A program made the translations under genes and the position numbers. 64,000 nt of DNA from positions 20,873,468-20,937,467 of the forward strand of contig JAOANR010000001.1 of NCBI GenBank assembly GCA_030278955.1, in the 5' to 3' direction. Below the pieces are notes generated by a model. That model did not search any database and had not been told where the DNA came from. It worked only from the letters and a program-made list of their open reading frames with translations. Below, one piece after another: positions 1-55,060 of the stretch. The stretch comes from Hygrophila difformis. Lineage: Eukaryota; Streptophyta; Magnoliopsida; Lamiales; Acanthaceae. Each line of letters begins with the position of its first letter. Positions within the stretch are counted from its first letter, which is position 1.

Positions 1-249
1 TCTGAGACGAACATTTTGATCGTATTCCCATCTTATTTAATAAGAAAGCAGTTGAATTCAACAGATTAATGCGAGTTTGTAAGAATAATAAGAAGGTAAT
101 GAAAAACACAAAAATATACAATTTTAATTGTATTTGTGTTAGAAAACTCCAAAAACATGAAAAAAAAAGAAAAAGAAAAGAAAAATGAATGAAAAAATGG
201 GAAAAAGAATAAAAATCCCACAAACTGATTTTTTTGGCTAAGTGTTGAA

Positions 250-690
250 AACCAATTCGGTTTACATCAATGCGGTATATACCGCATTGCCCATGTAAAC
301 CGAATCACTGGAGCAAGAAGAAAAATGGCCAAGTGTTGAGAGGAGATGCGAAATACCCAATGCAGTTTCATCAATGCGGTTTATACCGAATTGACATTGA
401 AACCGCATCACTTCAAGAAGAAACCCAGAGCAAAAAGAGAGATGCAATGCGATATTACTCAATTCGGTTTATACCGAATAGACTCCTAAACCGCATTGCA
501 TCAAAACAAGGAAGCCAAGCAGGAGGCCATGAGCAATGCGAAATGACCAATTCGGTTTACACAATGCGAATTAAACCGCATTGATGTAATAAACCGCATC
601 CCAGCCAAAGAAGAAGAAAAGAAGACCTCATGCAATTCGATATGTACCAATGCGGTTTATACCGAATTGCTTGAGGAAACCGAATCCGGA
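250..690. repeat. Nested palindrome block 1 (ATGCGGTTT/ATTCGGTTT core)
   Basis: Five units with inner palindromes near 268-289, 372-393, 460-479, about 548-583 and 648-669, roughly 88-104 bp apart. The first inner core, AATGCGGTATATACCGCATT, is a perfect 20-bp palindrome. Outer arms embrace each core: 255-267 pairs with 293-305 over 13 bp, and 441-451 pairs with 492-502 over 11 bp. Arms alternate between a TGCGG and a TTCGG version, usually together on both sides. Spacers are not conserved. The block lies just upstream of the TATA box at 766. Confidence 0.85.
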
Positions 691-765
691 TGAAGCTGTG
701 GAACACGTGAAACATGCATGCTACTGTTAATGGGCCCCGATGAGCCTAGGGTTCTGAGAAAGATG

Positions 766-773
766 TATAAAAG
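766..773 (+). promoter_or_regulatory. TATA box of family-A LTR
   Basis: TATAAAAG follows a GGGCCC/GCCTAGGGTTC segment that is also present ahead of the TATA boxes at 7059 and, on the minus strand, near 43755. Position between palindrome blocks 1 and 2 is the same in the copy at 6430. It is inferred to be the U3 promoter. Confidence 0.6.
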
Positions 774-1589
774 CTGACCCTCACCAACACTTGGAGACAC
801 TTACACACTTTGAATATTCAGAAGGGGACAAAAGGAACAAGGAGCAGGAGGATCTTCACCCTTTAAGGGTTAGGTAGGTAGTTTAGTTAGTTTATTTTTC
901 ATGCATGTTAGTTTAGTCTTAGATGTTTTAATCTTAGTCTAGTTTGTAAATAGCTTGTTACTACCATTTAGTGTAGCCATTTCCATACTCTTTACATGCT
1001 TTTTAGTTAGAATGAACCCAACCTTCAATCTAATGATGGTTTTGGGTTATTTATTATGCTTTCAAGTGTTAATACAAGGAAAAATTCCAGAAATGGGTTT
1101 TATTTCATGTGTTTGACACTCTTTAAATGCTTTCCTTAGTAATAAATGTGTAGAATGTTTGTTTGTATCAACTAGGTCTCATTTAAAGTGTTTCTAGTTG
1201 ACTTACAAACTCAATAAATGCATGTTTAGTGGGTTTGTAGTATGTTATGCCTTAGAGCTTCAAATAAGTGTTCTTAGGTCTTAGATAATTTAAGGGTTTA
1301 TTAGAAATATGTTTTTATGCTTTATTTTATATTTCTTGTTCTAGATCTTTGATTTATGCTCCCTTAGATAATGTAGGTGTTCTTATTTTATGCATGTAGT
1401 TTTTAGATTTTTAGACTGTTTTAGGTAGTTTAATTCTTAAATTTCTTGATTGTAGTTTTTAGGGTTTAATTCATGCTATTACCCATTGAACATGTATAAT
1501 TCTTGATAACCACAAAATACTCACAAATATGACTGCGAGATGATACTGATGTGAAATGAATGATGTGGTCAATCCCATATCATAAACCG

Positions 1590-2170
1590 CATCAGCTTAG
1601 AAACCGCATGAGTATTTGTGAGCAAAAATATAACTTATGCGAAAATTTTATGCAATTTGGTTTAGGCAATGCGGTTTATACCGCATTGCTAAACCGCATT
1701 GCCCATAGAGACCGCATTGCATGATAAAAAATTGGTGTTTGTTGTTTATTTTCTCCCTTAATGTGGTTTCTTGCAATTCGGTATACGCAATGCGGTTTAT
1801 ACCGCATTGCACTTTAAATCGAGTTGCCTCCTGAAACCGTATTGTATGCATATCCATCCCCTCATGCCTTAGTTTATTTATTTATCAACCCAACGCGGTT
1901 TCTGCCAATTCGGTTTATACCGAATTACTTTGGCAAACCGCATTACCCTCCTTTTTGAAGCAAATGCCTTAGCCAAATTTGAGCAAGGGAATAACCTCAT
2001 CAATTCTGTTTGTCCAATGCGGTTTATACCGCATTGACTTGACAAACCGAATTAGATGATGTTATTTGGCATCCTTGCAATGACTGATTGGGTAAGGAAA
2101 TACTTCATTTCTCATGCATATTCAATGCGGTTTATATCGCATCCAATTTATTAAATCGCATTGATCTCCT
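1590..2170. repeat. Nested palindrome block 2 (ATGCGGTTT/ATTCGGTTT core)
   Basis: Inner palindromes start at 1667, 1788, 1906, 2015 and 2123, that is at intervals of 121, 118, 109 and 108 bp. Around the 2015 core the outer arms 2002-2014 and 2041-2053 pair with one mismatch and carry the TTCGG/CCGAA version, while the core carries TGCGG/CCGCA. The 1906 core carries the TTCGG version inside arms of the GCGG version. Spacers look unrelated. Confidence 0.85.
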
Positions 2171-3478
2171 ATTATTTTAAAAATCCATAAACATTGTACT
2201 TCCTGAGTTGTGTAAGTTGCATGGGTGTATTGGGCTTAGGCCCATTACATCTAATTTTTATCCATTACACATCTCAACCATTAGTGTCTAAATTATTGTG
2301 TGATTCACACTCACATAATACCAAAAATATTCTTTTAATTTTATCCTTTCTTTTTATTGTGTGTATGAATGAGTAATAAGGAATATCACATATCAATATT
2401 GGCAAAAAGGTCCCTTCACCGGGATAACGATTAGCTCGTCTTCTGTGTATTAATTATTGCTCGTTATTTTGCATGATCCAATTAGAGATTGGTGGAAGCT
2501 ACGGCAAAAAGATCCCTTCACAGGGATAACGATTGGCCACTCAGCCAATTCCTAATTAGATACAGTTTTCTTTTCTTTATCTTAATTTCAAACCTGAATT
2601 TCAAGCTATGGTAATATTAGACAGTGTCGATCAACACTGTTATAATAATACTGTAGTAAGGAAACATGTGGGTTTTTCCTCATTCATGGATAGTAGGACT
2701 TTCGATAATAGCGATCACTGTTATCAAAGGTTCCTTACTGTTTAAAAATCATACCATCTGGAATAATTGGGAACTGGATAGCAGATGTTTGCAGTCCAGA
2801 TCGCCCCAGTTATTTCTAGCACTCTTTTTAGCCAAATTCTTCTTTTCTCATGGCTAATCCATCTTTGCGTATCAAATTCTGTCTAATCCCACCATATATT
2901 TTGGGGTATTTTATTTTACTTCTCATATACATGTATGCATGATATTATTATGTAGCTATTGTGGCCATATTATTTTAGGATCCTTCCCTTGGACATAGAA
3001 GTCTTGATGTAAATCAGATGTTGCATAATAAATTTCCACAAAAATCACTTTATAAAATCCGGATCTGAGTAAGGGATAATTTCACAGTTATGACTAATTC
3101 ATCTTCTACTGGGGGTTGATTTTGAGAACTTAGATGCAGAGTCAGCGATTAGGTCTCACCTGACTGAAAGGATCTGTGTTTTAATTGAGAGTCTAGTACC
3201 TGTGTAGGGAATGATTTTCAAATATCAATTGTTTTCTCAAAATTGCTGTATGTTGGAAATCTTATATTAGATATTACATCAGCTCAGTGTCTACTTGGAC
3301 TCAGATAAATGTGATAAATAATACTAGAGGAACAACATATAGGCCTTGGTTAATTTCTAAGGTAGGGTTGAGTATTCTTTCAACTACTATCTTCTCCCAC
3401 CAAAGCCTAGAATTGAGTCTTGAGTGAGTACATCCGGAATAGACCTTCATGGGTCTTCATGGGTCTATTCCATTCAGT

Positions 3479-3483
3479 TTGTA
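3479..3483 (+). other. Target-site duplication TTGTA of element B1 (left)
   Basis: TTGTA precedes the LTR start TGTAATAC at 3484 and is repeated directly after the LTR end GTGTTACA at 39032-39036. Confidence 0.85.
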
Positions 3484-6054: not shown

Positions 6055-6429
6055 TGTAATACCCGAGATTTTTATAAAAAGAAATGGAATTAAATCCAAG
6101 AAGCGAAAGGATTTTGATTCCGAGAATACGAAAGTCGAAAATGCACGGAAGTCAAAAGACGACGAATTAGAAGCCGACAAATCCGAAACCGACGGACTTA
6201 AGATTTCAAACACGAAATCAATTTCAAGTCGAAATAGATTTAAGATAGGAATCGTGATCCGAGAATGACCCGGAATAATCGAGCCCGAAAATGTAGGAGG
6301 ATAGAAACCCGAAAGAGAGGAGAAAAGGCCCGACGGGATCGCACGGCCCAGTCCGGACGCACGGCCCAGACCAAGCCGCGCGCCCTCCACGCGGTGTTTG
6401 GCCTTACACCGCGCCAACTCCGCGCCGTC
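6055..6429 (+). repeat. B2 LTR1, left part
   Basis: It is nearly identical to 26496-26870 and 32052-32425. It is interrupted after CCGTC by the solo LTR at 6430 and resumes at 10523 with CACACAGCAGCTGCAC, as in the uninterrupted copies. Confidence 0.9.
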
Positions 6430-6778
6430 TGATAATGGCCAGAAATGACCATTATTTTCAATCCGTTTCCGTGTCTAAAACGGGCATTTGATCGCATTCC
6501 GGTCTTATATCAAATAAGAAAGCAGTTGAATTGGACTGATTTATGCATAATTGTAAAAATATTGAGCTGGTATGAAAAATGCACAAATATGTAATTTTAT
6601 TACATATTTATGCTAGAAAAATCCAAAAACATGAGAAAAAGAAAAGAAAAGAAAAAGGATGCAAAAAGATGGGCAAAAGAATAAACAAGCCCACAAAAAT
6701 ACAAAAAGATGGGAAAAGATAGAAAAGCCCACAAAAAGAACAACTTCGGCCCATCTGGCCCATTCAGCTCTGTCTGGG

Positions 6779-7010
6779 AACATCTGGTCGAGGAACCCTG
6801 GTCGAGGACCATTGTTCCGCGACACAGAAGGGATTAGGGACCAGCATGCAACATAAAGAGGAGACCAGTCTGGGAGCACCCAGTCAAGGGACCCCGGTCG
6901 CGGTCCATGCATTAGCGACACGGATATGGATAGAGACACAAGACCCAGTCGAGAAGCCTTGCCACATGCAGCCTGTCCCGCGACAAAGTTGTGATGTGTG
7001 TGATGTCTTG
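6779..7010. repeat. Nested palindrome block 1 of the solo LTR (GTCGCGG core, degenerate)
   Basis: Degraded halves such as GGTCGAGGAAC, GTTCCGCGACA and GGTCGCGGTCC lie in both orientations. The block is placed just upstream of the TATA box at 7059, as block 1 is at 250-690 in the sister LTR. Confidence 0.6.
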
Positions 7011-7058
7011 AGACACAGTGGGCCTCAGATCAAGCCCATGGGCCTAGGGTTCCACTTC

Positions 7059-7066
7059 TATAAATA
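7059..7066 (+). promoter_or_regulatory. TATA box of family-A solo LTR
   Basis: TATAAATA follows GGGCCTAGGGTTCC, matching the context of the TATA box at 766. Confidence 0.6.
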
Positions 7067-7711
7067 TGAGGTGATCCCCATGAGCACAGAGAGTTTTTTT
7101 AGGTTGGACAGAATCAAGAAAAATTGTTCTTGGAGACAAGTGTAGAGCTTAGTTTGTAGGTAGTTTTTAGGTTAGCTTAGTTTAGCTTTAATTTTTTTCT
7201 GTATTATTTAGTTATTGCATAGATCCAGCTTAGGTAGCCAGTTTTCATCTTGTTTTCAGTTTCAAACTTTGTTTTAGGGTTTTGTGATATCCAGGATAAT
7301 GGGTATTAACAAATTCCTTAATAAAATGGGAAGATATTCTTGAAATGTGTCCCAAAAATCATTAAATGGGTTTCACACCCCATGGATCTTTTATTATTTC
7401 CTTCTGGGTCATCTTGTATGAGAGACATTGGTTTCTCATGCAAGGGAATGGAAATAATTCCATAATTACTCCTTATGTCTAAATAACCACTCATTCCATA
7501 ATTAATTAATTAATTACAGTCCGGATTATGTACTTAGATCATTAGAGTTTAATTTATTAGAAGAATCTTTTAATGGCCAATTGAACAAAGTTCTTTATAT
7601 CAAAATAATCATGGGTTGAGATCATTGGATTTTAACCTCAAAATATTAATATAAAGGTTCAATTAATTAGTAGAGTGAGATGGAGAATAAAAAATTTGGC
7701 AAAAAGATGCC

Positions 7712-8100
7712 AAGCCTGTCGAGAAACAGGCCTGTCGAGAAACATAAATTGAGTCGCGGACCGTGGGTCCACGACAGGAGGATCTCGACAGATAGGTGGG
7801 AAATAAGAGAAATGAAATTTTGGAAATTAGGGTTGTCGTGTCGCGGAACAAGGAGTGTGTCGCGGACCATAGGTCCGCGACAGGGATTCCGCGACACAAG
7901 GTGAGAAAATCCAACAAAAAACATAATTCCTGGTCACGGAACAAGAAGTGTGTCGCGAACCGTGGGTCCGCGACTGGGGTTCCGCGACCAGAGCCCTTCT
8001 AAAATAAAATTGCAAGAATTTGGATCCTTGGTCGCTAATCAAGTGGTTGTGTCACGGACAGTGGGTCCGCGACAGGTTTGGTTTGCGACCAAGGATTTTA
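7712..8100. repeat. Nested palindrome block 2 of the solo LTR (GTCGCGGA core)
   Basis: There are four units about 95-100 bp apart. In the unit at 7838-7897 the outer arms GTGTCGCGGAA (7838-7848) and TTCCGCGACAC (7887-7897) enclose an inner palindrome at 7858-7882 with 11-bp arms. In the next unit, 7931-7942 pairs with 7979-7990 with one mismatch, using a GGTC-type arm. A further unit has TTGGTCGC and GCGACCAA outside a core near 8050-8073. The architecture is that of block 2 at 1590-2170 but the sequence is unrelated. Confidence 0.85.
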
Positions 8101-10522
8101 AAAGATTTATACAACACATGTTCTTGGACACTCATGTCGCTGAACAGCTAGTAAGAGTATAACAGACTAATGTTGGCGGGTATTCCCACACGGATAAACT
8201 AGCTCGTGGTCTGTATATTAATTACTAGATGTTATTTTGCATGGTCTGGATAGTGGCCGGTGGAAGCCTTGGCGGTTCGTCCATCCGGGATTATAATAGC
8301 TGCTCAGCCGACTCCTATCCGGATACAGTTTCTATTTATATTATCTTAATTTCAAACCTGAATTTCGAGCTGTAATATTATCAAACGGTGTCGATCAACA
8401 TTGTTTGAATAGTTTTACAATGAGAAAACATGTAGGTTTTTCTCTCATTTCACAGATAGTAGAAACCTTGATGATAGCGATCACTATCAATTAAGGTTTT
8501 CTGCTGTCTAAAACCTTTTCACCTGGAATAGTTGGGACCTGGACAGCAGATGTTTGCAGTCCAGGTAACCCCAGTTATTTTTGCCATCTTTTTAGCCAAA
8601 TAAATTCTTCTCATCTCCGGCTATTTCACCTCTGTGTCTCAACTTCTGTCTAAACCCACTTTATATTTTGGGTTAATTTAATTTTACTCTTCCCTATAAA
8701 TTTATGCATGATATTATTATGTAGATATTGTGGTCATTATTATTTTGGGATCCTTCCTTGGACATAGGAGTCTTGATTTTAATCAGATGTCTCACAATAA
8801 ATTTCCAACAAAAATTCATTTATAAAAGCCGGATCTAAGTAAGGGATAAATTCCACAGTTATGTCTAACTCATATCTGACTGGGGATTGATTTTGGGAAA
8901 TTAGAAGCAGAGTCAGCGATTAGGTCTCACCTAGACTGAAAGGATCTGTATTTTACTTGAGAGTCTAGTACCTGTTTAGGGAATGATTTTCAAACATCTA
9001 TTATTTTTCCAAAATTGCTTTGTGTTGGAATTCTGGTATTAAAAATCACACTGAGATGGGATCCACTTGGATTCAAACACGGCGTGATAGATAATTCTAG
9101 AGGAACAATACATAGGCCTTGGTTATTTTCTAAGATAGGGTTGAGTTCCTTTCAACTGCTATCCTCTTCTGCCAATGCCTATTTTTGAGTCCTGAGTGAG
9201 TGCATCCGGAACGAACTAATCCATTAGTTTGTTTCATTAGTTTGTATCTCATAACCACCCGGAAGGAAGCGAACACTACGAGCGGTTCACCAAGATCCGG
9301 GAATTCTTGATCTACACACAGTCATTCTGACTGGGGGCTTTCTTTTACTACCAGGGTCAGACTTTCAAAAACCTCCGAGTGATAGGATTTTAAATGCTTT
9401 CTTTACCGCCTTCTTTTAAATGCTTTCGTTAGAGGTCACTCGGTTGTATTGAGAGTTGTGTAACTGCTCCTAGGACTGAGAGTTAAGGGATAGTTCAGGG
9501 CTTAATTAGAATCTTTGGGCGTGACATGGGGGAATGATAGCAGTACTTGATACTTCAATAAGTGATTTGTCGGGTGTTGCTTGTCCACCACAGATGGCTG
9601 ACATACTCTCGCAAGGCATTGCAAGAGGAGTTATAAGTTTGTGGTATCTTAGAGTTTGTTTTCTTAAGAGCATGTAAACTCTTACTGTAAGTACCTGTCT
9701 GTTAAAGGGAACATGGTATAGAGAGCATGAGAATTAGCTAACTGAAAGGATTATCCCAAGCTAAGATCTGTGTATTAAAATGGAAGTTTAACTGTGTTTT
9801 CATCTGAATCTTGTCCAATTTTTATTCTTTTCTCCATGACCTTTGTGTCTCATTTTAAATCTGCCTTCTTAGAATAATCTTAACCGCTTCCTTAGAATAG
9901 TTTTATTGCTTTCTTAGATTAAATCTAATTCGCTTTCTAGAATAATTTTATCTGCTTCACTTTATTGCTTTCATAGCTTAGTTTAAATTCTGTCAAGTAG
10001 TTGATAGTCAAAACACAACTTGAATTGAGTAACCGAGTGGAAAATCTTAGTAAACGATGTGGGCCCTGCTTCTATCGCACATCCTCCAGTGAACGATCCG
10101 GTCTTACTATAAATTACTGCAATTTTTGACACCGTGCGCTTTCGGGCCACAGTTTCTTAACACGAGTAATAAAAAACGTGACAGCTTATAAATATATCCC
10201 TAATCCCAACTCCGGCTTCTTAAATTGGTTTCATTAAATAAAATTGAAAACCAGGATTATGATTTTTCAGAAAATACTCATGAAGTGGGAACTTGTCAAA
10301 AGTTTCATGGCAAGGATCTTCATGGCACAAAATCGTCAGAAATTTCATGCCGGGGAGGTTCGTGATGCCACTTGAACTCAAAGTTTACTCTCATGAGTAA
10401 TAAAAAGTGGAATATATTCTTAAACCCCTTCCCACGAATCATAACTCTTTTTATTTAATAAATTCAACTTGGGATATTTTAGAAAATACTCGTGTGACGA
10501 AATTGTCAAAAGTTTCACCGTC

Positions 10523-26495: not shown

Positions 26496-29384
26496 TGTAA
26501 TACCCGAGATTTTTATAAAAAGAAATGGAATTAAATCTGAGAAGCGAATGGATTTTGATTCCGAGAATACGAAAGTCGAAAATGCACGGAAGTCAAAAGA
26601 CGACGAATTAGAAGCCGACAAATCCGAAACCGACGGACTTAAGATTTCAAACACGAAATTAATTTCAAGTCGAAATAGATTTAAGATAGGAATCGTGATC
26701 CGAGAATGACCCGGAATAATCGAGCCCGAAAATGTAGGAGGATAGAAACCCGAAAGAGAGGAGAAAAGGCCCGACGGGATCGCACGGCCCAGTCCGGACG
26801 CACGGCCCAGACCAAGCCGCGCGCCCTCCGTGCGGTGTTTGGCCTTACACCGCGCCAACCCCGCGCCGTCCACACAGCAGCTGCACTTGACGCGGTTATG
26901 CGATTTTCTTGCCATATTTTCGGCCCTCTATCATGGAAACTAGATCACAAACGGGGGGAAAGGATCATGGGCGATTTATGGCTGATCCTAACATCCTAAA
27001 ACACATTATTTCAGATCCTATTCACCCTCATTACCCCTCACTTTCTCTCCTTTGCTCATCCAATCCAAAAAAAAACCAAGTTCTTGCACATTCGAAGACC
27101 ACCATACGAAGGAGGCGACGATTTGGACGAGGCCAAGCAATTTTCAGACTTCGTGTGGTGGTAAGGATAGATTTCAATCTTAAATCATGGTTCCTAATCG
27201 AATTTAGAGTCCTCACTTTTAGTTTTTCGCTCTTGTATTCACAAATCGGGACCGAAGAGAAAGAAACGATTAGATTGGACGTGTTCACGGACTCCGGAGG
27301 CCATCCCGACGAAATCTAAGACTTTAGATCTTAGATACTGTATGTTGATTCTTCTCATAACCGTTTTGGTGCCCTAAAATCGAATGGAATGCAAGTTTTA
27401 ACCAACATATGAAAATCTGTCCTAAACCCCCTCCCTTTGCGCAGTTTCTGAAATCCAATTTTTAGGCCCTTTTCGAGCTTTCAAACGGAGAAACTTAAAA
27501 CTACAAAATTGTTCCTAAGGACTTAAAGTATACTGTGTAAAAATTTCAGAAATGTTCGTCGACGTTTGGCCCGTCAAATCAAATCTGGTATATTCTGCGT
27601 TTTCGGACAAAACCCCATATGTGACAGTTTTGCGTGTTCGAATCCCTTGACGTTTTTCTAATGGATGCCATCAAAACTAAACTTTTATGTAAAAACGAAA
27701 GTTGTAGCTAACTGTATAAATAGTGTGTCCGTAAAATTTCACGCGTTTTCGTTAAGTTTTGATACTCGAAATTTCACCGAGAAGATTCTGCGTTTTTAAA
27801 TACTTTCGAAAATCCTGACAGCTTTCATATGCGGACTTCATGTGGATTTTTCTCTCACCTTCTGTCGAAACCAATCTTTGATGTGAACATAAAAGTTGTA
27901 GATATTTGTAAAATTTCATGAACTTTGGTTACGTTTGAACTTTCAAATTGATCCGAACAGCCTGCGTTTTTGAAAAGAAACCTTGACAGATTTTTACCCA
28001 AACTTGATGCGCGGATCTGATCCGATCCGGAGTGTTTCCGGACAAAATACCTATAATAGAACTTGTTCATTTTTGTGTCATTTACATGCCTGTAAAATTT
28101 CATAATTTTCGGAGTTCGTTTACTAGGTCGGAAACATGTTTTAAAAACAGTGCGCTGTTACCGGAAGGTGGCAGATTATACTTTTTAAGAAGATCGTAAA
28201 ATTTGACTTGTTTCCTTACCCGATTTCGAGAAACCTAAAACACAAAAGTTGTTTGTTAGGGTGTCGTTGATACACTGAGTAAATTTCATAGTGATCGCCT
28301 TAAGAATGAATTTATGAAACCAAAAAGGCATAATCTGCGACGGGTGCGCTTACTAAACTTTGAGATTTATGAAAAACTTTCCTTGCGACACTTTCAACAA
28401 TTTTGAAAACTTTATGAATTATGATCGAATTGAGAACTATGAAATCTTGATTATGTGGCTTGTGGACATAAGAGCCCAAGCATACGACTAACGGACATAA
28501 GAGCCCTAGTGAAACATAAATTATGCGGCTTGTGGACATAAGAGCCCAAGCGTACGACTAGAGGACATAAGAGCCCTAGTGAAATATTGATATGAGACTT
28601 GTGGACATAAGAGCCCAAGCGTACGACTAGAGGACATAAGAGCCCCAGTGAAATATCGACCATGAGGCTTGTGGACATAAGAGCCCTAGCGAATGGTGAT
28701 TTGTAAGACTTGTGGACATAAGTGCCCAAGTGGAAACAAAAGTAGAAGAATGAAATATTAGCTATGCGAGAACATATAATCTATCCCATGAATTATGAAA
28801 CCCTTTGACTTATAATAAATTCCTTTATGCTAATTTCTAAAATTTATATCCTTAGTATTTGTGTACGTCTCTTTACGTTTAGAATCATGCAGTTAAATTC
28901 TTATTATTAATGTTGACAAAATACATTTTTATACTATAAAATGTGCATGAGTAAAAAGGAGAATTTTTATTAATTACATTTTTAAAACCCATTATTGTTA
29001 TGTTAAGAATTAACTTACTCAGTATTTTATATACTGATAAAACCCGTTGTTTTATTTTTCTTTTACAGAGTATGAAGGAATGGCATGAGCATGCACGCAT
29101 ATTGGGGCTCGGGAATTAAATTAGGAATTATGAATGTTGTATTTTGTTAGATTTAAATTACCCACTACGTTTTGGCCATGTCGGCCCATATTTAAATTTT
29201 CCGCTGCGGCTTATTTGAATTATACTATGTTATTTTAAAGTAAATCCTTTTGGGCTTGTTTTTAAATTATTTTTGAAATACCTTTAGCCTTGCATCTCTC
29301 AAGCGAGCTCGAATGAACTCGTGTCTTGCTTGGGAGGTGCGGCGGTGGCATCCCGGCCTGGGTTATCAAATCCGGGGTGTTATA
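26496..29384 (+). repeat. B2 LTR2 (shared middle LTR)
   Basis: It starts TGTAATACCCGAG and ends GTGTTATA (the usual final CA has become TA). It aligns with LTR1 without the solo-LTR insertion. It is followed by a primer site, so it served both neighbouring units. Confidence 0.92.
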
Positions 29385-29387
29385 AAG

Positions 29388-29399
29388 TGGTATCAGAGC
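29388..29399 (+). other. Primer-binding site, B2 unit 2
   Basis: TGGTATCAGAGC, three bases after the LTR end. Confidence 0.85.
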
Positions 29400-29776
29400 C
29401 CTGAAATATTTTAAAAATATTATTTTTATTTTTAGCCCAATATAGGGGCCCAAAGAAATTTTTAACTACTATTATTATTATTTTAAAATTTCAAAGTATT
29501 ATTTCCATGGTTCAATTCTTATTTTTTTTAAAAAAAAACCCATGGGAAAATATATATAAATTATTCGGACAAGTTTAGATGAACGCATAAAATAATTTTT
29601 CGGGGTTGGGATAACATTGCATTGCATTGCATACATCCACGAATATTTGCGCTATTTTTTTTTATGTGAATTATCAGTATTAAATATTACTCTTATCTTA
29701 GAATTCGACATGACCTTGACTTAGGAGCGTTTGCTTAATACTAATTTTGCATTAGTCCTGGAACTTGATCACCTAA

Positions 29777-39031: not shown

Positions 39032-40129
39032 TTGTATCTCATAACCAACCAGATGTTATAAGCCCTGTGGCTTACTGATATTTGGGAAGTTCTAAATCTT
39101 CATCTGTTCATCAAGACCAGGGGCTCTTTTATACTAACGGAATGGGATAGCTTTTGAGACTTCCGAGTGATAGGTTTTTAAATGCTTTCTTTACCGCTTT
39201 CTTTACCGCTTTATTTTAAGTGCTTTGTAGAGGACACTCGGAAGAATTAGAGGTTGGCCGCCGTATGTAAGGTTTAAGAGTTATGGATTAGTTCGGAGTT
39301 TAATTTGGACTTTGGGTGTGACAGGGGAGAATGATAAGATTACTTGGCATATCAACTAATGATATGTTAGGTGTTGCTTAACCACCATGGAGAAATAACA
39401 TACCTCGGCAGGGGCAGTTATTAATCTGTGGTATCTTAGATGTTGAGGTCTTAAGAGCATGTAAATTCTGACTGTAAGTACCTGTCAGTTAAAGGGAACA
39501 TAGTTTAGAAAGCATGAGAGTTAGCTAACTGATAGATTATCCCAAACAAAGATCTGTGTATAAAATGGAAGTTTAATTATGTCTCATCAGAAATCTTGTC
39601 CAATCTTTATTATTTTCTTCCTGTCCCTTCTGTCACATTTTAAATCTGCTTTATAGATAGTATAGCTTAAATTTTACATGCTTTCGTAGAATAGTTTTAC
39701 CCGCTTTCATAGATTAATTTTTATTGCTTTCTTAGAATAGATTTAATTGGTTTTTAGAATAATTTTACCATGCTTTGTAGAATAATTTTATTGCTTTCAT
39801 AATCTAGTTTAAATTATGTCAAGTAGTTCTAAAACCAAACACAAGCTTGAAACGAGTAACCGAGTGAAAAATCTTAGTAAACGACGTGGGCCCTGCTTCT
39901 ATCGCACATCCTCCAGTGAACGATCCTGTCTTACTATAAATTACTGCAATTTTTGACATCGTGCTCTTTTGGGCCACAGTTTCCTACATGAGTATATAAA
40001 AACGTGACACCTATAAACATATCCCTAATCCCAATTCCATCTTCATAATTGGTTTCATTAAATAAAACTAAACCGGGATTATTATTCTTCAGAAAATACT
40101 TATATAGTGGAAAATTGTCAAAAGTTTCA
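39032..40129 (+). mobile_element. Family-A LTR, right part
   Basis: It continues the LTR cut at 3483, aligning with 9247-10517, and ends GTCAAAAGTTTCA. The first five bases are the TTGTA duplication. Confidence 0.8.
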
Positions 40130-40149
40130 TGGTGTCGTTTACGGGGAGG
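40130..40149 (+). other. Family-A primer-binding site (tRNA-Asp-like)
   Basis: TGGTGTCGTTTACGGGGAGG abuts the LTR end and resembles the TGGCGCCGTTGCCGGGGA site, complementary to tRNA-Asp, known from Athila/Tat-type plant elements, with several changes. Confidence 0.6.
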
Positions 40150-41140
40150 ATGCAGCGCTGTTTATTAAGAGATTACACTCCTGATTACTCATAGTTAGTT
40201 TTGCGTATATATTTCAGAACAGAGAAGTACCCTCAAATCAATTAAACATTTAGAGTACTAAGACTCTAAATGTGTGGATGTTGATTTGAGGGTAAAACCT
40301 AATAAATTTGGGTATTTTTCTTGCAGGAATCATGGAGCCACCAAAAAGAAAAAGAAAGCATCGAAACAGGTTCCCGGTTGGATTAGTTCCGTAAATGACC
40401 GAAGACTATATCTGGAACTTAAAGAAATTTAAGATCCGGAATAATTTTCACAAGCGCAGAATTGATCCAACCTAGATTTTTGCAAGCCCATATAATTTTA
40501 TTTATATATATATATATATAAAAGAATAGAATAAACGAAAAATCAAAGAAAAATGGAGAGAAGTGTAGCAGTGGGGCTACACTAATTCGCAATCGAAAAT
40601 TGCAAAATACGTGAGACTCACGTTTTTGTCATCTCCACCACCACCGGACAAGCCACGGCCACCATCTCCACTTGCCGTCGCCCCTGTCCGCATGTTTTCC
40701 AACCCCCAACAGCCAGCTTATTTTTAATTCATTATATATATATTTATTTATGCAACACATTCATTTTTCTTGAAAATAAGTATCCAAACATCAACTAAAC
40801 ATTTAGAGTACTAAGACTCTAAATGTGAGGATGTTGATATTTGGAGAAAAATTTGATAATTTTCTCATGTTTGCTTTGCAGGAATTCATGGAATCAACAA
40901 AAAGAAAAATAAAGCTTCAAAAACCAGGTTCCTGGTTGGATTAATACTGTATTTAATGGAAATTAATTTCGGAATTTAAATTCCGGAATAAATCCATAAA
41001 ATAACAGTGTTGATCCCACCTAATTTATGCAAGCAACTAATTGTTAGAATAATACTTGTGTGTAAATGTGCATGTTCAGTATGTTTAATTTGTGGAAAAT
41101 GCATAATGTTATAAAATGTTAAAAACTGGAAGATTTCAAA
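40150..41140 (+). repeat. Family-A internal region: two diverged direct repeats with a hairpin
   Basis: About 40230-40490 and 40780-41040 are related direct repeats. Each contains the hairpin CATTTAGAGT...ACTCTAAATG, then a TTGCAGGAAT that resembles a splice acceptor and ATGGA. Between them lie a (TA)n tract (40504-40520), small palindromes (GTGTAGC...GCTACAC near 40563 and ACGTGAG...CTCACGT near 40610) and a CACC-rich segment. There is no open frame of note. Confidence 0.65.
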
Positions 41141-41154
41141 ACTTTTCTAACTGT

Positions 41155-41600
41155 CGAATGCGGTTTAATTTTCCTCTCAAATCAATGCGGTTTATACCGC
41201 ATTATTTGAAACAAACCGCATCGGACATGTTGCCTTAGTAATTTTACCAATTCGGTTTGATCAATGCGGTATATACCGCATCGGTATAAAAGACCGAATT
41301 GATCATCCAAGGCACATGCCCTGTGTTAATATTGCCAAGTAGCAATTCGGTTTAAGCAATGCGGTATATACCGCATTGATTTTAATAAACCGAATGAATC
41401 TACGAAAGGCATTGTATTTTTGCAAGTGAGCAATTCGGTTTATGCAATGCGGTATATACCGCATTGCCAAACCACATTACCTCACAAAAGCATCCCTTAT
41501 TTCTTCTAAGTGTCCAATTCGGTTTCCCCACTCCAATTCGGTATTATTCGATGCGGTTTATGCCGAATCGATGATGCGGTTTCCCTTAAACCGAATTGCC
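41155..41600. repeat. Nested palindrome block 3 (ATGCGGTTT/ATTCGGTTT core)
   Basis: Inner cores start at 41183, 41262, 41357 and 41445 (intervals 79, 95 and 88 bp), three of them with the perfect AATGCGGTATATACCGCATT-type centre. There is a rearranged unit at about 41515-41600. Outer arms are mostly of the TTCGG type (for example CAATTCGGTTTA and TAAACCGAAT around the 41357 core). The block lies directly upstream of a pyrimidine-rich stretch and a presumed first exon at 41775. Confidence 0.85.
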
Positions 41601-41774: not shown

Positions 41775-41812
41775 ATGGCGTCTTCATCTGAAAACGGAAG
41801 TGGGAGTAAAGG
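41775..41812 (+). CDS. Possible short first exon (MASSSENGSGSK) with splice donor
   Basis: An ATG after a T/C-rich leader opens a Ser/Gly-rich peptide (MASSSENGSGSK) that meets GGTAAGTT, a good donor site. Downstream DNA to 42700 looks intronic (T-rich, no long frame). It may be the first exon of an element-encoded or captured gene whose remaining exons are lost. The same layout, palindrome block then pyrimidine-rich leader then short exon, is seen at 58359-58790. Confidence 0.4.
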
Positions 41813-42702
41813 GTAAGTTCTCTATTTTCGATTTCGCACCCCATTCTCGCGATTTCAGTTTTTGTATTTTCATGGGTTTTGTGAAATCGGGGGTGGGGAA
41901 GGAGAATGGAGACTGTTTTTGTGTTAGGAATGATTGGAATTAGGTCGGATTGTGTTGGGCATGGTCGGAATAGGTTAGAGCAGAATGGTGCAAACTAGAG
42001 CTTTCGTGTTTACTGTTCGACTGCCATTGTTGAGTGTTTGAAGCTTTGTGTGGTTGTTGGGGGAGGGGGGGGCTTGTTTTAGAAAAATTTGGGTTTCGAA
42101 ACCCTCAAAAATTCAGTCTTTGTCCATTGTATAAATATTGTTTCCATTTGTGTTGTCTGTGTGTATACACTGTTATCTGTGATTGTGCTTGGAAATATGT
42201 GAAAATGTAGAACACAGTGGTGATTTTCCCTTGTGCCCCTGTGATTATTTGATGTTTTGATGTAGTGAATAAGCATGATGATGTGTTTGATTCTATGATC
42301 AATGTTGATGGAGCATGTATTTTTTGGAAAATTTTGAAAATAGTGGCATGAATGGACTGTGTAGTGCTTGTTTTAGTGTTTGCATGCTACTGTGTTGGGA
42401 GAACCATGTTCAATAAATGTTTTTGTGAGTACCTGGTTTATTGTACTCCACAAACTCAACTGAAAAGTTGATGTTTGTATAGAATTGGAAACATGGGATT
42501 ACAAACAAAACCATGCCAAAATTTTTCCTGACATGTGCTTTCCAAGTACTGTTGGCATGGTATTCATGTGTAGAAAAGACAAAAAGTTGGTAGAATGCTT
42601 GTTTTTATTAGTGTTTGACTTGCACATGTAGGGATATGTGGGGAATCAACAAAGTGTAACAACTTTGCTCACTTGTCAATACCCATTCCTTAACAAAAAT
42701 TC
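41813..42702 (+). other. Noncoding internal region of family-A element
   Basis: T- and G-rich sequence without a meaningful frame or recognisable repeat. It is consistent with an intron or the spacer of a large retrotransposon derivative. Confidence 0.5.
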
Positions 42703-42714
42703 AAATGGGGGACC
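42703..42714 (+). other. Polypurine tract of family-A element
   Basis: AAATGGGGGACC directly precedes a family-A LTR start, here mutated to TAATAATGG. Confidence 0.65.
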
Positions 42715-43065
42715 TAATAATGGCGAAAATTGACCATTATTTTCAATCTATTTCCGTGTCTAAACAGGTGCATTTGATCGCATTCCGGTCTTATTTAAAT
42801 AAGAAAGCAGTTGAATTTGACAGATATGTGCAAGTTTGTATAAATAATAAGTTGGTATTGAAAAATACAAAAATATTGTTATTTTATTAAATTTGTGTTA
42901 AAAAAAGCCAAAAACATGTTAAAATATTAAAAATTCCACACTTGATTAATTATGGTATGGTGGTATCTGTTCGGTGGAACACGGGTCCATTAAATGGAAC
43001 ACAAGCCAAATAATCAATTGAAACAAATATCTATATTTATTTATACATATTTAGTATTTATTTTA

Positions 43066-43464: not shown

Positions 43465-44575
43465 ATGGTAAACAACCCAAAACCACTCATTATTTGAATG
43501 TAGGGTTTATTCTAACTAAAAAGCCTTTAAATGTATGGAAATGGCTACTCTAAATGGTAAGAACAAGAGTTACAACTAATCTAAAGTAAAAACAAGATAA
43601 AACTACACTACATTACAAGAAAATAAAGCTAAACTAAACTACCTACCTAACCCTTAGTGGGTAAGAACTGAAGGTTCTTGCTCTCTCTTTTTGAAGTTCT
43701 TTTTGTCTGGATGGATAAAGTTTGAAGTGATGGAAGATACACACTTTTATACTCCTTTTCACGAAATCCTAGGCCCATTAGGTCAAACAAGGCCCATTAA
43801 CAGGAGCATGCATTGATCACGTGTTGTACAGCCTTATCCGGATATGCTCTTCAGACATGTGCTCATTTGAAATCGATGCGGTCTTCTTCAGGTGATGCGG
43901 TTTAGATCGCATCAAGTATACCACATTGCATATGGTCTTCCCTTCCTTGATCTTTGGTTGGGATGCGATCTAATTTAGTGATGCGGTTTACAAGGTCGAT
44001 GCGGTCTAGACCGCATCGAGCAGACTGCCTCACTTAGATCGCATGCATCTCTTCCTGCTTGGTTTCCTTCTTCTTGAAACGATGCGGTCTACAAGGTCGA
44101 TGCAGTTTAAACCGCATCGAGTAGACCGCATCAGTTAAAGCGCCTTGAGTGTTCTCTTCCAACACTTTCATTTTTCTTGCTTCTTCCTTCAGTGATGCGG
44201 TCTTGTAGATGCGATGCGATCTATTAAAACGATGCGGTTTAAACCGCATCGAATATACCGCATCAGATAGACCGCCTCGACTTCCAACACTTAGCCAAAA
44301 ATTCAGTTTCTGTGGGATTTTTATTCTTTTTCCCATCTTTACTTTCCTTTTTCTTTTCTTTTTCCTTTTTTCATGTTTTTGGATTTTTCTAACATAAATA
44401 CAATTAAAATTGCATATTTTTGTGTTTTTCATTACCAGCTCATTATTCTTACAAACTCGCATTAATCTGTCAAATTCATCTGCTTTCTTATTGGAATAAA
44501 ATGGGAATACGATCAAAATGTCCGACTTAGACACGGAAATGGATTGGAAATAATGGTCAATTTTGGCCATTATCA
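43465..44575 (-). mobile_element. Family-A LTR fragment, inverted
   Basis: Read on the minus strand, it starts TGATAATGG at 44575. It passes the A/T-rich early block, palindromes at 44280-43870, a TATAAAAG box near 43755 and the TTAGGTAGGTAGTTTAG segment, and ends abruptly near 43465 in a part equivalent to about 1050. Together with 42715 it forms two LTR starts in inverted orientation. Confidence 0.75.
43870..44280. repeat. Nested palindrome block in the inverted fragment (GATGCGGTCT/ATGCGGTTT core)
   Basis: Cores such as CGATGCGGTCTAGACCGCATCG (about 43999-44020), GATGCAGTTTAAACCGCATC (about 44099-44118) and GATGCGGTTTAAACCGCATC (about 44231-44250) have outer halves GATGCGGTCT and AGACCGC. 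This is a third variant of the core, with C in place of T on one side and G in place of A on the other. Confidence 0.8.
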
Positions 44576-52919: not shown

Positions 52920-54755
52920 ATGGGTGCCTACTCTTACGTCTCGGAGCTCTGGAAGAAGAAGCAATCCGATGTCATGCGCTTCATACTTGGGGTTCGTTGT
53001 TGGGAGTACCGTCAGGTTCCCGCCGGCGTCCGCGTCACCCACCCTACTCGCCCCGACAAGGCAAGACGCCTCGGCTACAAGGCAAAACAGGGGTATGTGC
53101 TTTACCGTGTCCGTGTTAGACGTGGTGGAAGGAAGAGGCCAGTTCCAAAGGGGATTGTACATGGGAGGCCCACCAACCAGGGTGTTACTCAGCTGGGATT
53201 CCTGCGCAGCAAGAGTTCCGTGGTGGAGGAACGTGGTAGCAGGAAACGTGGGGGCATTAGGGTTCGTTGTTGGGAGTATCGTCAGCTTCCCGCCGGCTTC
53301 CGCGTCACCCACCCTACTCGCCCCGATAAGGCAGGACGCTTCGGCTACAAGGCAAAACAGGGGTATGTGGTTTACCGTGTCCGTGTTAGACGTGGTGGAA
53401 GGAAGAGGCCAGTTCCAAAGGGGATTGTACATGGGAGGCCCACCAACCAGGGTGTTACTCAGCTGGAATTCCTGCGCAGCAAGAGTTCCGTGGTGGAGGA
53501 ACGTGGTGGCAGGAAACGTGGGGGTATTAGGGTTCGTTGTTGGGAGTATCGTCAGCTTCCCGCCGGCTTCCGCGTCACCAACCCTACTCGCACCGATAAG
53601 GCAAGACGTCTCGGCTACAAGGCAAAACAGGGGTATGTGGTTTACCGTGTCCGTGTTAGACGGGGTGGAAGGAAAAGGCCAGTTCCAAAGGGGATTGTAC
53701 ATGGTAAGCCCACCAACCAGGGTGTTACTCTGTTGAAATTCCTGCACAGCAAGCGTTCGTGGTGGAGGAACGTGCTGGCAGGAAACGTGGGGGGACGTAG
53801 GCTTCGTTGTTGGGAGTACCGTCAGGTTCCCGCCGGCGTCCGCGGCACCCACCCTACTCGCCCCGATAAGGCAAGACGTCTCGGCTACAAGGCAAAACAG
53901 GGGTATGTGCTTTACCGTGTCCGTGTTAGACGTGGTGGAAGGAAGAGGCCAGTTCCAAAGGGGATTGTACATGGGAGGCCCACCAACCAGGGTGTTACTC
54001 AGCTGGGATTCCTGCGCAGCAAGAGTTCCGTGGTGGAGGAACGTGGTGGCAGGAAACGTGGGGGCATTAGGGTTCGTTGTTGGGAGTATCGTCAGCTTCC
54101 CGCCGGCTTCCGCGTCACCCACCCTACTCGCCCCGATAAGGCAGGACGCTTCGGCTACAAGGCAAAACAGGGGTATATGGTTTACCGTGTCCGTGTTAGA
54201 GATGGTGGAAGGAAGAGGCCAGTTCCAAAGGGGATTGTACATGGGAGGCCCACCAACCAGGGTGTTACTCAGCTGGAATTCCTGCGCAGCAAGAGTTCCG
54301 TGGTGGAGGAACGTGGTGGCAGGAAACGTGGGGGCATTAGGGTTCGTTGTTGGGAGTATCGTCAGCTTCCCGCCGGCTTCCGCGTCACCAACCCTACTCG
54401 CACCGATAAGGCAAGACGTCTCGGCTACAAGGCAAAACAGGGGTATGTGGTTTACCGTGTCCGTGTTAGACGGGGTGGAAGGAAAAGGCCAGTTCCAAAG
54501 GGGATTGTACATGGTAAGCCCACCAACCAGGGTGTTACTCTGTTGAAATTCCTGCACAGCAAGCGTTCGTGGTGGAGGAACGTGCTGGCAGGAAACGTGG
54601 GGGGACGTAGGCTTCGTTGTTGGGAGTACCGTCAGGTTCCCGCCGGCGTCCGCGGCACCCACCCCACTCGCCCCGATAAGGCAAGACGTCTCGGCTACAG
54701 GGCAAAACAGGGGTATGTGGTTTACCGTGTCCGTGTTAGACGTGTTGGAAGGTAG
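52920..54755 (+). pseudogene. Tandem array of ribosomal protein eL15 (RPL15) gene fragments in one long frame
   Basis: ATG at 52920 opens [21 protein letters not shown], the eL15 N-terminus, preceded by CATTGCAG, which looks like a retained 5' intron acceptor. It then runs into repeated 90-codon units ([50 protein letters not shown], then a basic KRGG). In eL15 these residues occur once (about 25-114) and are followed by a further about 90 residues that are absent here. Frame is kept because each unit is 270 bp; units 3 and 6 contain two compensating 1-bp indels. The frame ends TAG at 54753. A function as ribosomal protein is impossible. Whether it is expressed is unknown. Confidence 0.85.
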
Positions 54756-55060
54756 AGTCCGGTTCCACAGGAGATTGTACATGGTAATCCCACCAAGCAG
54801 GGTGTTACTCAGCTGAAATTCCTGTGCGGCAAGAGGTCCGTGGTGGCAGGAAACGTGGGGGCATTAGGGTTCGTTGTTGGGAGTATCGTCAGCTTCCCGC
54901 CGGCTTCCGCGTCACCCACCCTACTCGCCCCGATAAGGCAAGACGTCTCGGCTACAAGGCAAAACAGGGGTATGTGGTTTACCGTGTCCGTGTTAGACGT
55001 GGTGGAACGAGGAGGCCAGTTCCAAAGGAGATTGTACATGGTAAGCAAAAATTATTATTA
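52991..55060 (+). repeat. 270-bp tandem repeat, 8 units, with 810-bp higher-order period
   Basis: Unit starts are at 52991, 53261, 53531, 53801, 54071, 54341, 54611 and 54867; the last interval is shortened by 14 bp. Units 1, 4 and 7 share the VPAGV type, 2, 5 and 8 the LPAGFRVTH type, and 3 and 6 the LPAGFRVTN ... RTDKA type. The array thus grew by copying three-unit blocks. The last unit breaks off at ACATGGTAAGC and turns into AT-rich DNA. Confidence 0.95.

Follow-up and report, generated by a model that had tools for sequence, protein, structure and literature searches.

Palindrome arrays at three fixed places of a plant LTR-retrotransposon family share one word per element, which may drift by copying between arms and move with promoter cassettes

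In a window of 64,000 nucleotides from Hygrophila difformis (contig JAOANR010000001.1, positions 20,873,468 to 20,937,467), we examined copies of one family of long terminal repeat (LTR) retrotransposons that carries arrays of nested inverted repeats at three fixed places, upstream and downstream of the TATA box in the LTR and within the internal region. Each element we examined uses one palindrome word, or one mix of words, across its three arrays, and related elements spell their arrays with other words at the same three places. Between some word classes the arrays can still be aligned, most of their half-sites showing one and the same base change; in A-type LTRs, the partner arms of a unit change together; and between two further classes, sequence identity drops sharply inside a cassette. 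The explanation we put forward, to which we give a little less than even chances, is that the shared word drifts by arm-templated copying and that cassettes move between lineages by recombination.

An earlier note on this window had argued that two sister LTRs keep the same palindrome architecture at the same position while the word is replaced, and our alignments agree. The sisters are C2, a solo LTR of 4,088 bp with TG...CA ends and the GTCGCGG dialect (6430-10517, plus strand), and C1, whose 5' part lies at 1-3483 on the plus strand, its first ~43 bp preceding the window. The two can be aligned at the LTR start (79% over 215 bp) and again from C1 2422 and C2 8192 onward (76.8% over 2,200 bp), and the arrays lie between these stretches, one on either side of the TATA box, in homologous positions upstream of it and in the leader. 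The TATA boxes, recognized from sequence, read TATAAAAG in C1 (766-773) and TATAAATA in C2 (7059-7066), both on the plus strand, and in the alignment a conserved GGGCCTAGG block precedes the latter. Both have the same architecture but spell it with different words (ATGCGG/ATTCGG in C1, GTCGCGG in C2). To call these words unrelated, however, would go too far: they do differ, but the dialects of C1, C2, and a further LTR fragment, C4 (43469-44575, minus strand), have (T/C)GCGG as their common main core, and the C4 dialect, GATGCGGTCT, is intermediate.

We located six arrays in the window. C1 has an upstream array of five units (240-690) and a downstream array (1560-2165), and the internal array of its element lies in the leader at 41157-41598; all three are on the plus strand and use AATGCGG/ATTCGG words. 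C4 has an upstream array (43870-44280, minus strand), while C2 has an upstream array just before its TATA box (about 6780-7010, plus strand; GTCGAGG/GTCGCGG words) and a downstream array (7711-8100, plus strand) with inner palindromes at 7753-7775, 7858-7882, 7952-7974, and 8050-8074, each enclosed by outer arms. The span 6779-8100, on which the note had centered its claim, does hold the C2 arrays (6780-7010 and 7711-8100), the promoter, and the leader, with the downstream array in an inversion private to C2 and the upstream array weak. GTCGCGGA occurs nine times in the window, always at 6816-8073, against 0.64 expected, and none of 100 shuffles reached nine. ATGCGGTTT occurs 24 times against 0.92 expected (0 of 100 shuffles), with sites in C1 (374-2133), the internal array (41158-41582), and the C4 fragment (43895-44249).

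A scan for palindromes, run without a preset word, found nested units in which two outer arms enclose an inner palindrome, and recovered the same arms as a count of CGG half-sites per array. In that count, half-sites of C1 and the internal array were mostly (A/G)AT(G/T)CGGT(T/A)TA, those of C4 were GATGCGGT(C/T)TA with G at position -4 in 13 of 13, and those of the downstream C2 array were mostly GTCGCGGA(C/A)C; because the count was anchored on CGG, conservation of CGG is not an independent result. In the downstream C2 array, nine bases separate the halves of the inner center (CGG-N9-CCG), as against six in the internal array, C1, and C4 (CGG-N6-CCG). We folded five arrays, all but the internal one, and four were far more structured than their shuffles (z -9.2 for C1 upstream, -11.4 for C1 downstream, -9.4 as RNA for C2 downstream, and -11.8 for C4 upstream), with the upstream C2 array no better than shuffles (z -0.86). 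The neighboring non-array piece 8192-8600 also folds well (z -5.65), so folding alone is not specific to arrays. The LTR body block contains hairpins too (8192-8600 and 2422-2830), and the C1 and C2 sequences differ there in ways that, by eye, seem partly compensatory.

We searched for relatives in the window's own genome (915 Mb). The first look gave 8,154 candidates for the C2 block and 6,028 for the C1 block, from which the best 40 of each were scored; 58 stretches were fetched, all 58 with the conserved block, and with C1 and C2 they make a set of 60 LTRs that represents near relatives of these two copies and not the family as a whole (L001, the window itself, and the repeat hits L002-L008 were left unused). 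The commonest among five counted words was GTCGCGG in 27 LTRs, AGCG[CT]CG in 12, AATGCGG in 12, ATTCGG in 8, and GATGCGG in 1. The unit spacing of about 95-100 bp given in the earlier note was about right: medians were 103.5 bp for GTCG, 97 for AGCG, 108 for AATG, and 101.5 for ATTC, counting only successive inner-palindrome distances of 60-160 bp. On a tree of the conserved 1-kb LTR body block (8192-9211, plus strand; 79% to 2422-3439), which lies outside the arrays and serves as the check proposed in the note, the five word classes need four changes, the minimum possible, compared with a shuffled mean of 29.5. Arrays holding both AATG and ATTC are common, as in L032 (16 AATG and 14 ATTC), and L033 mixes 22 GATG with 12 AATG. 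In ten C4-type upstream stretches, nine were mainly GATGCGG, and L075 was mixed, with eight GGTGCGGTCT and five GATGCGGTCT. The search for intermediate arrays that the note had proposed was thus successful, in L032, L033, L075, and the C4 dialect GATGCGGTCT, while no direct GATGCGG-GTCGCGG intermediate was found among the copies fetched. Scans of IMG/VR with two inner palindromes gave no match.

The word extends beyond the LTR. In all five elements in which we found an internal array, it carries the element's own LTR word: the C1 element in the window has 8 AATG, 9 ATTC, and 4 GATG, and among relatives L080 has 13 AGCG, L081 has 14 AGCG, L078 has 9 GTCG, and L089 has 11 GTCG. Ten stretches were inspected for such arrays; none was found in L082, L083, L087, L088, or L090, and L084 is cut inside an LTR and was unused. 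These internal arrays lie kilobases away from the LTR cassette, and their agreement with the element's own word speaks more strongly than any other observation for a factor or process that acts jointly on all the arrays of an element.

How one word gives way to another can be followed most closely between C1 and C4. The right-hand linkers of C1 pair with C4 linkers in order, U1-V1, U2-V2, U3-V2, U4-V3, and U5-V4 (p 0.000 each in 500 shuffles; five C1 linkers on four C4 linkers), and there are four weaker cross-matches (p 0.014-0.042). From C1 to C4, position -4 goes from A to G at 11 of the 12 half-sites where C1 has A (scored by eye, U3 excluded); the words of the two copies changed in place. 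The same can be counted between the ATTC and AATG LTRs, which align through both arrays at 0.71-0.85 (one 100-column window unscored) and in the block at 0.85-0.95. Among 40 homologous half-site columns, 27 have a majority of G in AATG rows, and 20 of those 27 have a majority of T in ATTC rows, whereas the same G-to-T transversion separates the two groups at 14 of 948 background G/C columns; this count, made on 14 of the 21 A-type LTRs, means that half-sites show the step 50 times more often than background. The upstream and downstream arrays of one LTR are concordant in their T fraction (Spearman 0.91, n = 17 LTRs). This array-wide change bears out the concerted replacement suggested in the earlier note, which also held point mutation to be a difficult explanation. 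That view is half correct: within the A lineages, steps of one base are enough, but an identical step is enriched at half-sites.

The arms of a unit are coupled. Across the 21 A-type LTRs, nested partner columns had a mean phi of 0.86 versus 0.43 for nearby non-partners (23 pairs; Mann-Whitney p 1.6e-5), and all 404 scored non-partner pairs averaged 0.55; partner phi could be computed for 13 of 17 pairs, which were polymorphic on both sides, the other four having one invariant side. Several polymorphic partner pairs agree in every row (19 of 19, 17 of 17, and four pairs at 10 of 10). A unit's own arms also pair better than arms swapped between units, with z 4.6 in the window and, in a test of 20 of the 60 LTRs, z 8.1 for 7 GTCG copies and z 7.5 for 7 A-type copies.

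Between the AGCG and GTCG classes, the contrast is of another kind. Along the LTR, their identity is 0.95-0.97 at positions 0-190, 0.41-0.64 at 212-1578, and 0.73 in the window that follows, recovering past ~1650 to 0.91-0.95 save for one 100-column window at 0.85; within either class, identity stays at 0.76-0.99 throughout (7 AGCG and 9 GTCG copies, 16 of the 39 LTRs of these classes). The low-identity segment of ~1.4 kb contains the promoter plus both LTR arrays, whose windows are at 0.41-0.57. The non-palindromic leader between the arrays is at 0.59, a figure that includes the probably mis-extracted AGCG row L022, versus 0.92 for the LTR body block, and between AATG and GTCG the two values are 0.52 and 0.79. 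Internal pieces of AGCG and GTCG elements are 12-23% different in local alignments (identity 0.77-0.88). In a leader tree, AGCG forms one clade with support 97 (10 of 12 rows) and GTCG one with support 100 (26 of 27 rows); L022 and L040, both long and probably mis-extracted, were left out, and L044, L051, and L063 yielded no leader. The simplest reading of the profile is that LTR flanks and cassettes have separate histories, with whole promoter cassettes probably swapped between the AGCG and GTCG lineages. For this abrupt contrast, cassette exchange is a better reading than the base-by-base change that suffices within the A lineages.

We propose that complementary arms most likely template one another, so that a shared word would drift across the whole element. 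Template switching during DNA synthesis, probably reverse transcription, would homogenize the arms, and copying between units and between arrays would spread a word variant, while recombination would probably carry entire promoter-plus-array cassettes between lineages of differing word. The arrays themselves presumably serve the promoter, as has been proposed for similar Sirevirus boxes. Template switching that homogenizes the arms of imperfect inverted repeats is an established mutation class (PMC8604942 and PMC3820800). With arm-templated copying as the cause of the co-change, a single process would account for the pairing of changes, their spread over an array, and the drift of words.

A number of observations weigh against this proposal. 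One inner partner pair agrees in just 2 of 9 rows, and the lowest scored partner pair has phi 0.22, with 7 of 15 rows agreeing. In 6 AGCG copies, own arms did not pair significantly better than swapped ones (z 1.13, p 0.13), and with words masked the advantage of own arms was weak (p 0.005 with 50-bp flanks, 0.23 with 60-bp flanks). The copies are related, so the p-values do not come from independent tests. When masked linkers of one array were compared, 21 of 29 unit pairs scored higher than the mean of their shuffles, most of them by a small margin, and an old unit duplication may lie behind the arrays. On the side of the proposal, TRF (Tandem Repeats Finder) lists no ~100-bp tandem array at the palindrome arrays, so the units are not recent duplicates, and such duplication was rejected as the origin of the common word. 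Against the proposal again, spacer inversion, which PMC8604942 names as a by-product of template switching, is nearly absent: A-type centers read TTTATA 62 times versus TATAAA twice, and GTCG loops read CAC 33 times and CAT 23 times versus no GTG among exact matches. Copying between LTR and internal arrays, kilobases apart, has to be assumed. As for exchange, AGCG is not one clade on the block tree, yet its monophyly there is not rejected (approximately unbiased [AU] test, p 0.36), so the case for recombination depends on the identity profile; a fast-evolving cassette could mimic part of the identity drop, and within AGCG copies the leader is indeed at 0.84 versus 0.94 for the block. A quick tree had given the impression of a word switch between AGCG and GTCG on a very short branch, which we dropped because AGCG monophyly is not rejected on the block, the leader tree groups each dialect, and the leader is 41% different.

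Alternatively, the words could be sites of a sequence-specific DNA-binding factor, either a host transcription factor or an element-encoded, VANC-like protein, in which case a shift in specificity would lead selection to change all sites in step. We regard this as distinctly less probable than arm copying but as a substantial rival. It would explain why three separate arrays share one word though their linkers resemble each other weakly at best, why words remain short, and why Sireviruses again show a CGG/CCG core (PMC2829016), and it has a precedent in VANDAL elements, whose motif arrays shift synchronously with an element-encoded binder (PMC5735166 and PMC10398659). A factor that reads sites, however, would need neither the unit-specific sequence into which some arms reach nor the co-change of outer arms ~48 bp apart, which is about as tight as that of inner arms, and a Pfam scan of four open frames found no DNA-binding domain. 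A binding factor thus fits the element-wide match better, and the nested partner coupling worse, than arm copying does, and the two may act together.

It is also conceivable, although we think it improbable, that the arrays are selected as RNA hairpins, in packaging, translation, or the resistance to or generation of small RNAs, with words drifting in an arms race with host small RNAs. The strong folding of four of the five arrays (z -9 to -12, C2 upstream at -0.9) and the position of two arrays per element downstream of the TATA box are in keeping with this, as are maize Sirevirus palindromes, described in PMC5311732 and PMC10760457 as small-RNA hotspots of high sequence variability. Yet arm mismatches show no sense-strand preference for G-U over A-C (67 versus 74, p 0.61), a signal that decay after insertion could mask; pairing alone needs no common word among units; and the non-array neighbor folds well too (z -5.7). 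The other process offered in the earlier note, repeated de novo formation of new-word arrays at the same LTR position, is hardly credible now. The poor alignment of the AGCG and GTCG array windows would suit it, but it is contradicted by the ordered C1/C4 linkers, by AATG and ATTC arrays that align and have the same base changed in place, and by a tree with just four changes, and it is not needed given that mixed and intermediate arrays exist.

The closest known kind of sequence, in the open-licence literature, is the palindrome box of Sireviruses, a Ty1/copia group. Bousios et al. in 2016 (Genome Res 26:226) reportedly described a palindrome-rich cis-region in the LTRs of maize Sireviruses. 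In PMC2829016, Sirevirus RM boxes are a repeated palindromic motif with a CGG-CCG core and family-specific words (AGCGGTASTACCGCT in Inga, GTCGGACGTCCGAC in Usier), and the primer-binding site is 5'-TATCAGAGC-3' (Met tRNA) behind a CA/ATTGG junction; PMC10760457 and PMC5311732 report high sequence variability and secondary structure for the LTR palindrome region in maize. Our family likewise has many palindromic copies upstream of the TATA box of a plant LTR, more in the internal region, and a CGG-CCG core in the A, C4, and GTCG dialects. It differs in that its AGCG[CT]CG dialect keeps this core only partly and is often without CGG (the AGCGTCG variants), its units are nested with outer and inner arms, the TATA box is followed by a second, full array, the primer site is TGGCGCCGTTGCCGGGGA and not TATCAGAGC, and one family uses several words between copies with 79-93% identical LTR body blocks. 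VANC-target arrays of VANDAL elements (PMC5735166 and PMC10398659) resemble ours as short motifs in many noncoding copies that diverge synchronously between related elements, but they stand in one orientation in tandem repeats, whereas half-sites here are inverted and nested and are not TRF tandem repeats; moreover, VANDAL is a DNA transposon and ours an LTR retrotransposon, with no VANC-like domain found by Pfam in the four frames scanned. Quasipalindrome correction, as described in PMC8604942 and PMC3820800, shares with our arrays that arms become each other's complement through paired changes, and differs from them in that here dozens of arms per element have one word and spacer inversion is nearly absent.

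The C1 LTR does not end at 3483, as the earlier note had it. A nested 35.5-kb insertion (3484-39031), marked by a 5-bp duplication of TTGTA, interrupts it there, and its 3' remainder resumes at 39032 and ends at 40129 (plus strand), just before the primer site; once the insertion is taken out, the joined C1 flanks match C2 across the junction (76.8% over 2,200 bp). C2 itself is flanked by a 5-bp target duplication, CCGTC (6425-6429 and 10518-10522), and sits in another element, a continuous copy of which at 26496-29776 is 97-98% identical to the C2 flanks. The C2 LTR end (9371-10517) is ~210 bp longer than that of C1 and seems to carry extra tail copies; the two LTRs share the terminus TCAAAAGTTTCA.

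C2 segment 7407-8148 (about), holding the whole downstream array, is inverted (minus strand) relative to other copies, as seen in alignments to L010, L012, and L052, and an 18-base marker within it has the normal orientation in 38 of 38 other copies (26 of 26 GTCG, 12 of 12 AGCG). Inverted arrays flanking the leader may have promoted this inversion.

The interior of the C1 element runs from a primer-binding site, TGGTGTCGTTTACGGGGA (40130-40147, plus strand, immediately after the LTR end), through the third array to a purine tract, directly behind which a further LTR copy, C3, begins (42714-42933, plus strand). In L080-L083, the primer site is TGGCGCCGTTGCCGGGGA, directly after the LTR end TTTCA, and the window's site is a decayed form of it, with 14 of 18 bases matching. 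By eye, the 18 bases in L080-L083 read as a candidate tRNA-Asp type primer-binding site, a type known from Ty3/gypsy elements of the Athila/Tat-like kind. In the element's leader before the internal array, 40225-40393 and 40778-40951 are direct copies (79%) that contain a strong inverted repeat, and similar pieces recur in relatives. Just past the array, a short ATG-initiated frame at 41775-41819 ends, by eye, at a GGTAAGT-like splice donor and is possibly a first exon. Elsewhere in the window, at 52990-55041, a 270-bp unit is repeated in tandem (7.6 copies), and the repeats have a long open frame that, by eye, looks like ribosomal protein L15.

The four open frames scanned with Pfam came from three interior pieces of one element and contained no reverse transcriptase, integrase, or gag domain. 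Frames L067:2161-3000 and L079:1-828 showed weak similarity to PF20167 (Transposase_32), below the curated cutoff, and two other hits were at chance level. Judging from these frames, the two are candidates for an element-encoded protein of a GTCG element, and with no reverse transcriptase in the four frames, the palindrome family may be non-autonomous.

If arm copying and cassette exchange are both at work, the arrays could amount to an element-wide palindrome code, three arrays in one dialect that drift by the former and jump by the latter, with the matched dialect serving as a self-recognition tag that isolates lineages. We consider this rather unlikely; if true, self-recognition would act through a binding factor or through pairing of array with array. 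The palindrome-rich LTR control regions of Sireviruses are known and reported to be variable, and in the open-licence papers we found nothing on the way in which their words change. In this genome, several dialects occur on similar LTR bodies together with intermediates, which makes word change a question that can be answered by counting, and the system could tell a mutation bias, in the form of arm copying, apart from selection that a binding factor or small RNAs exert.
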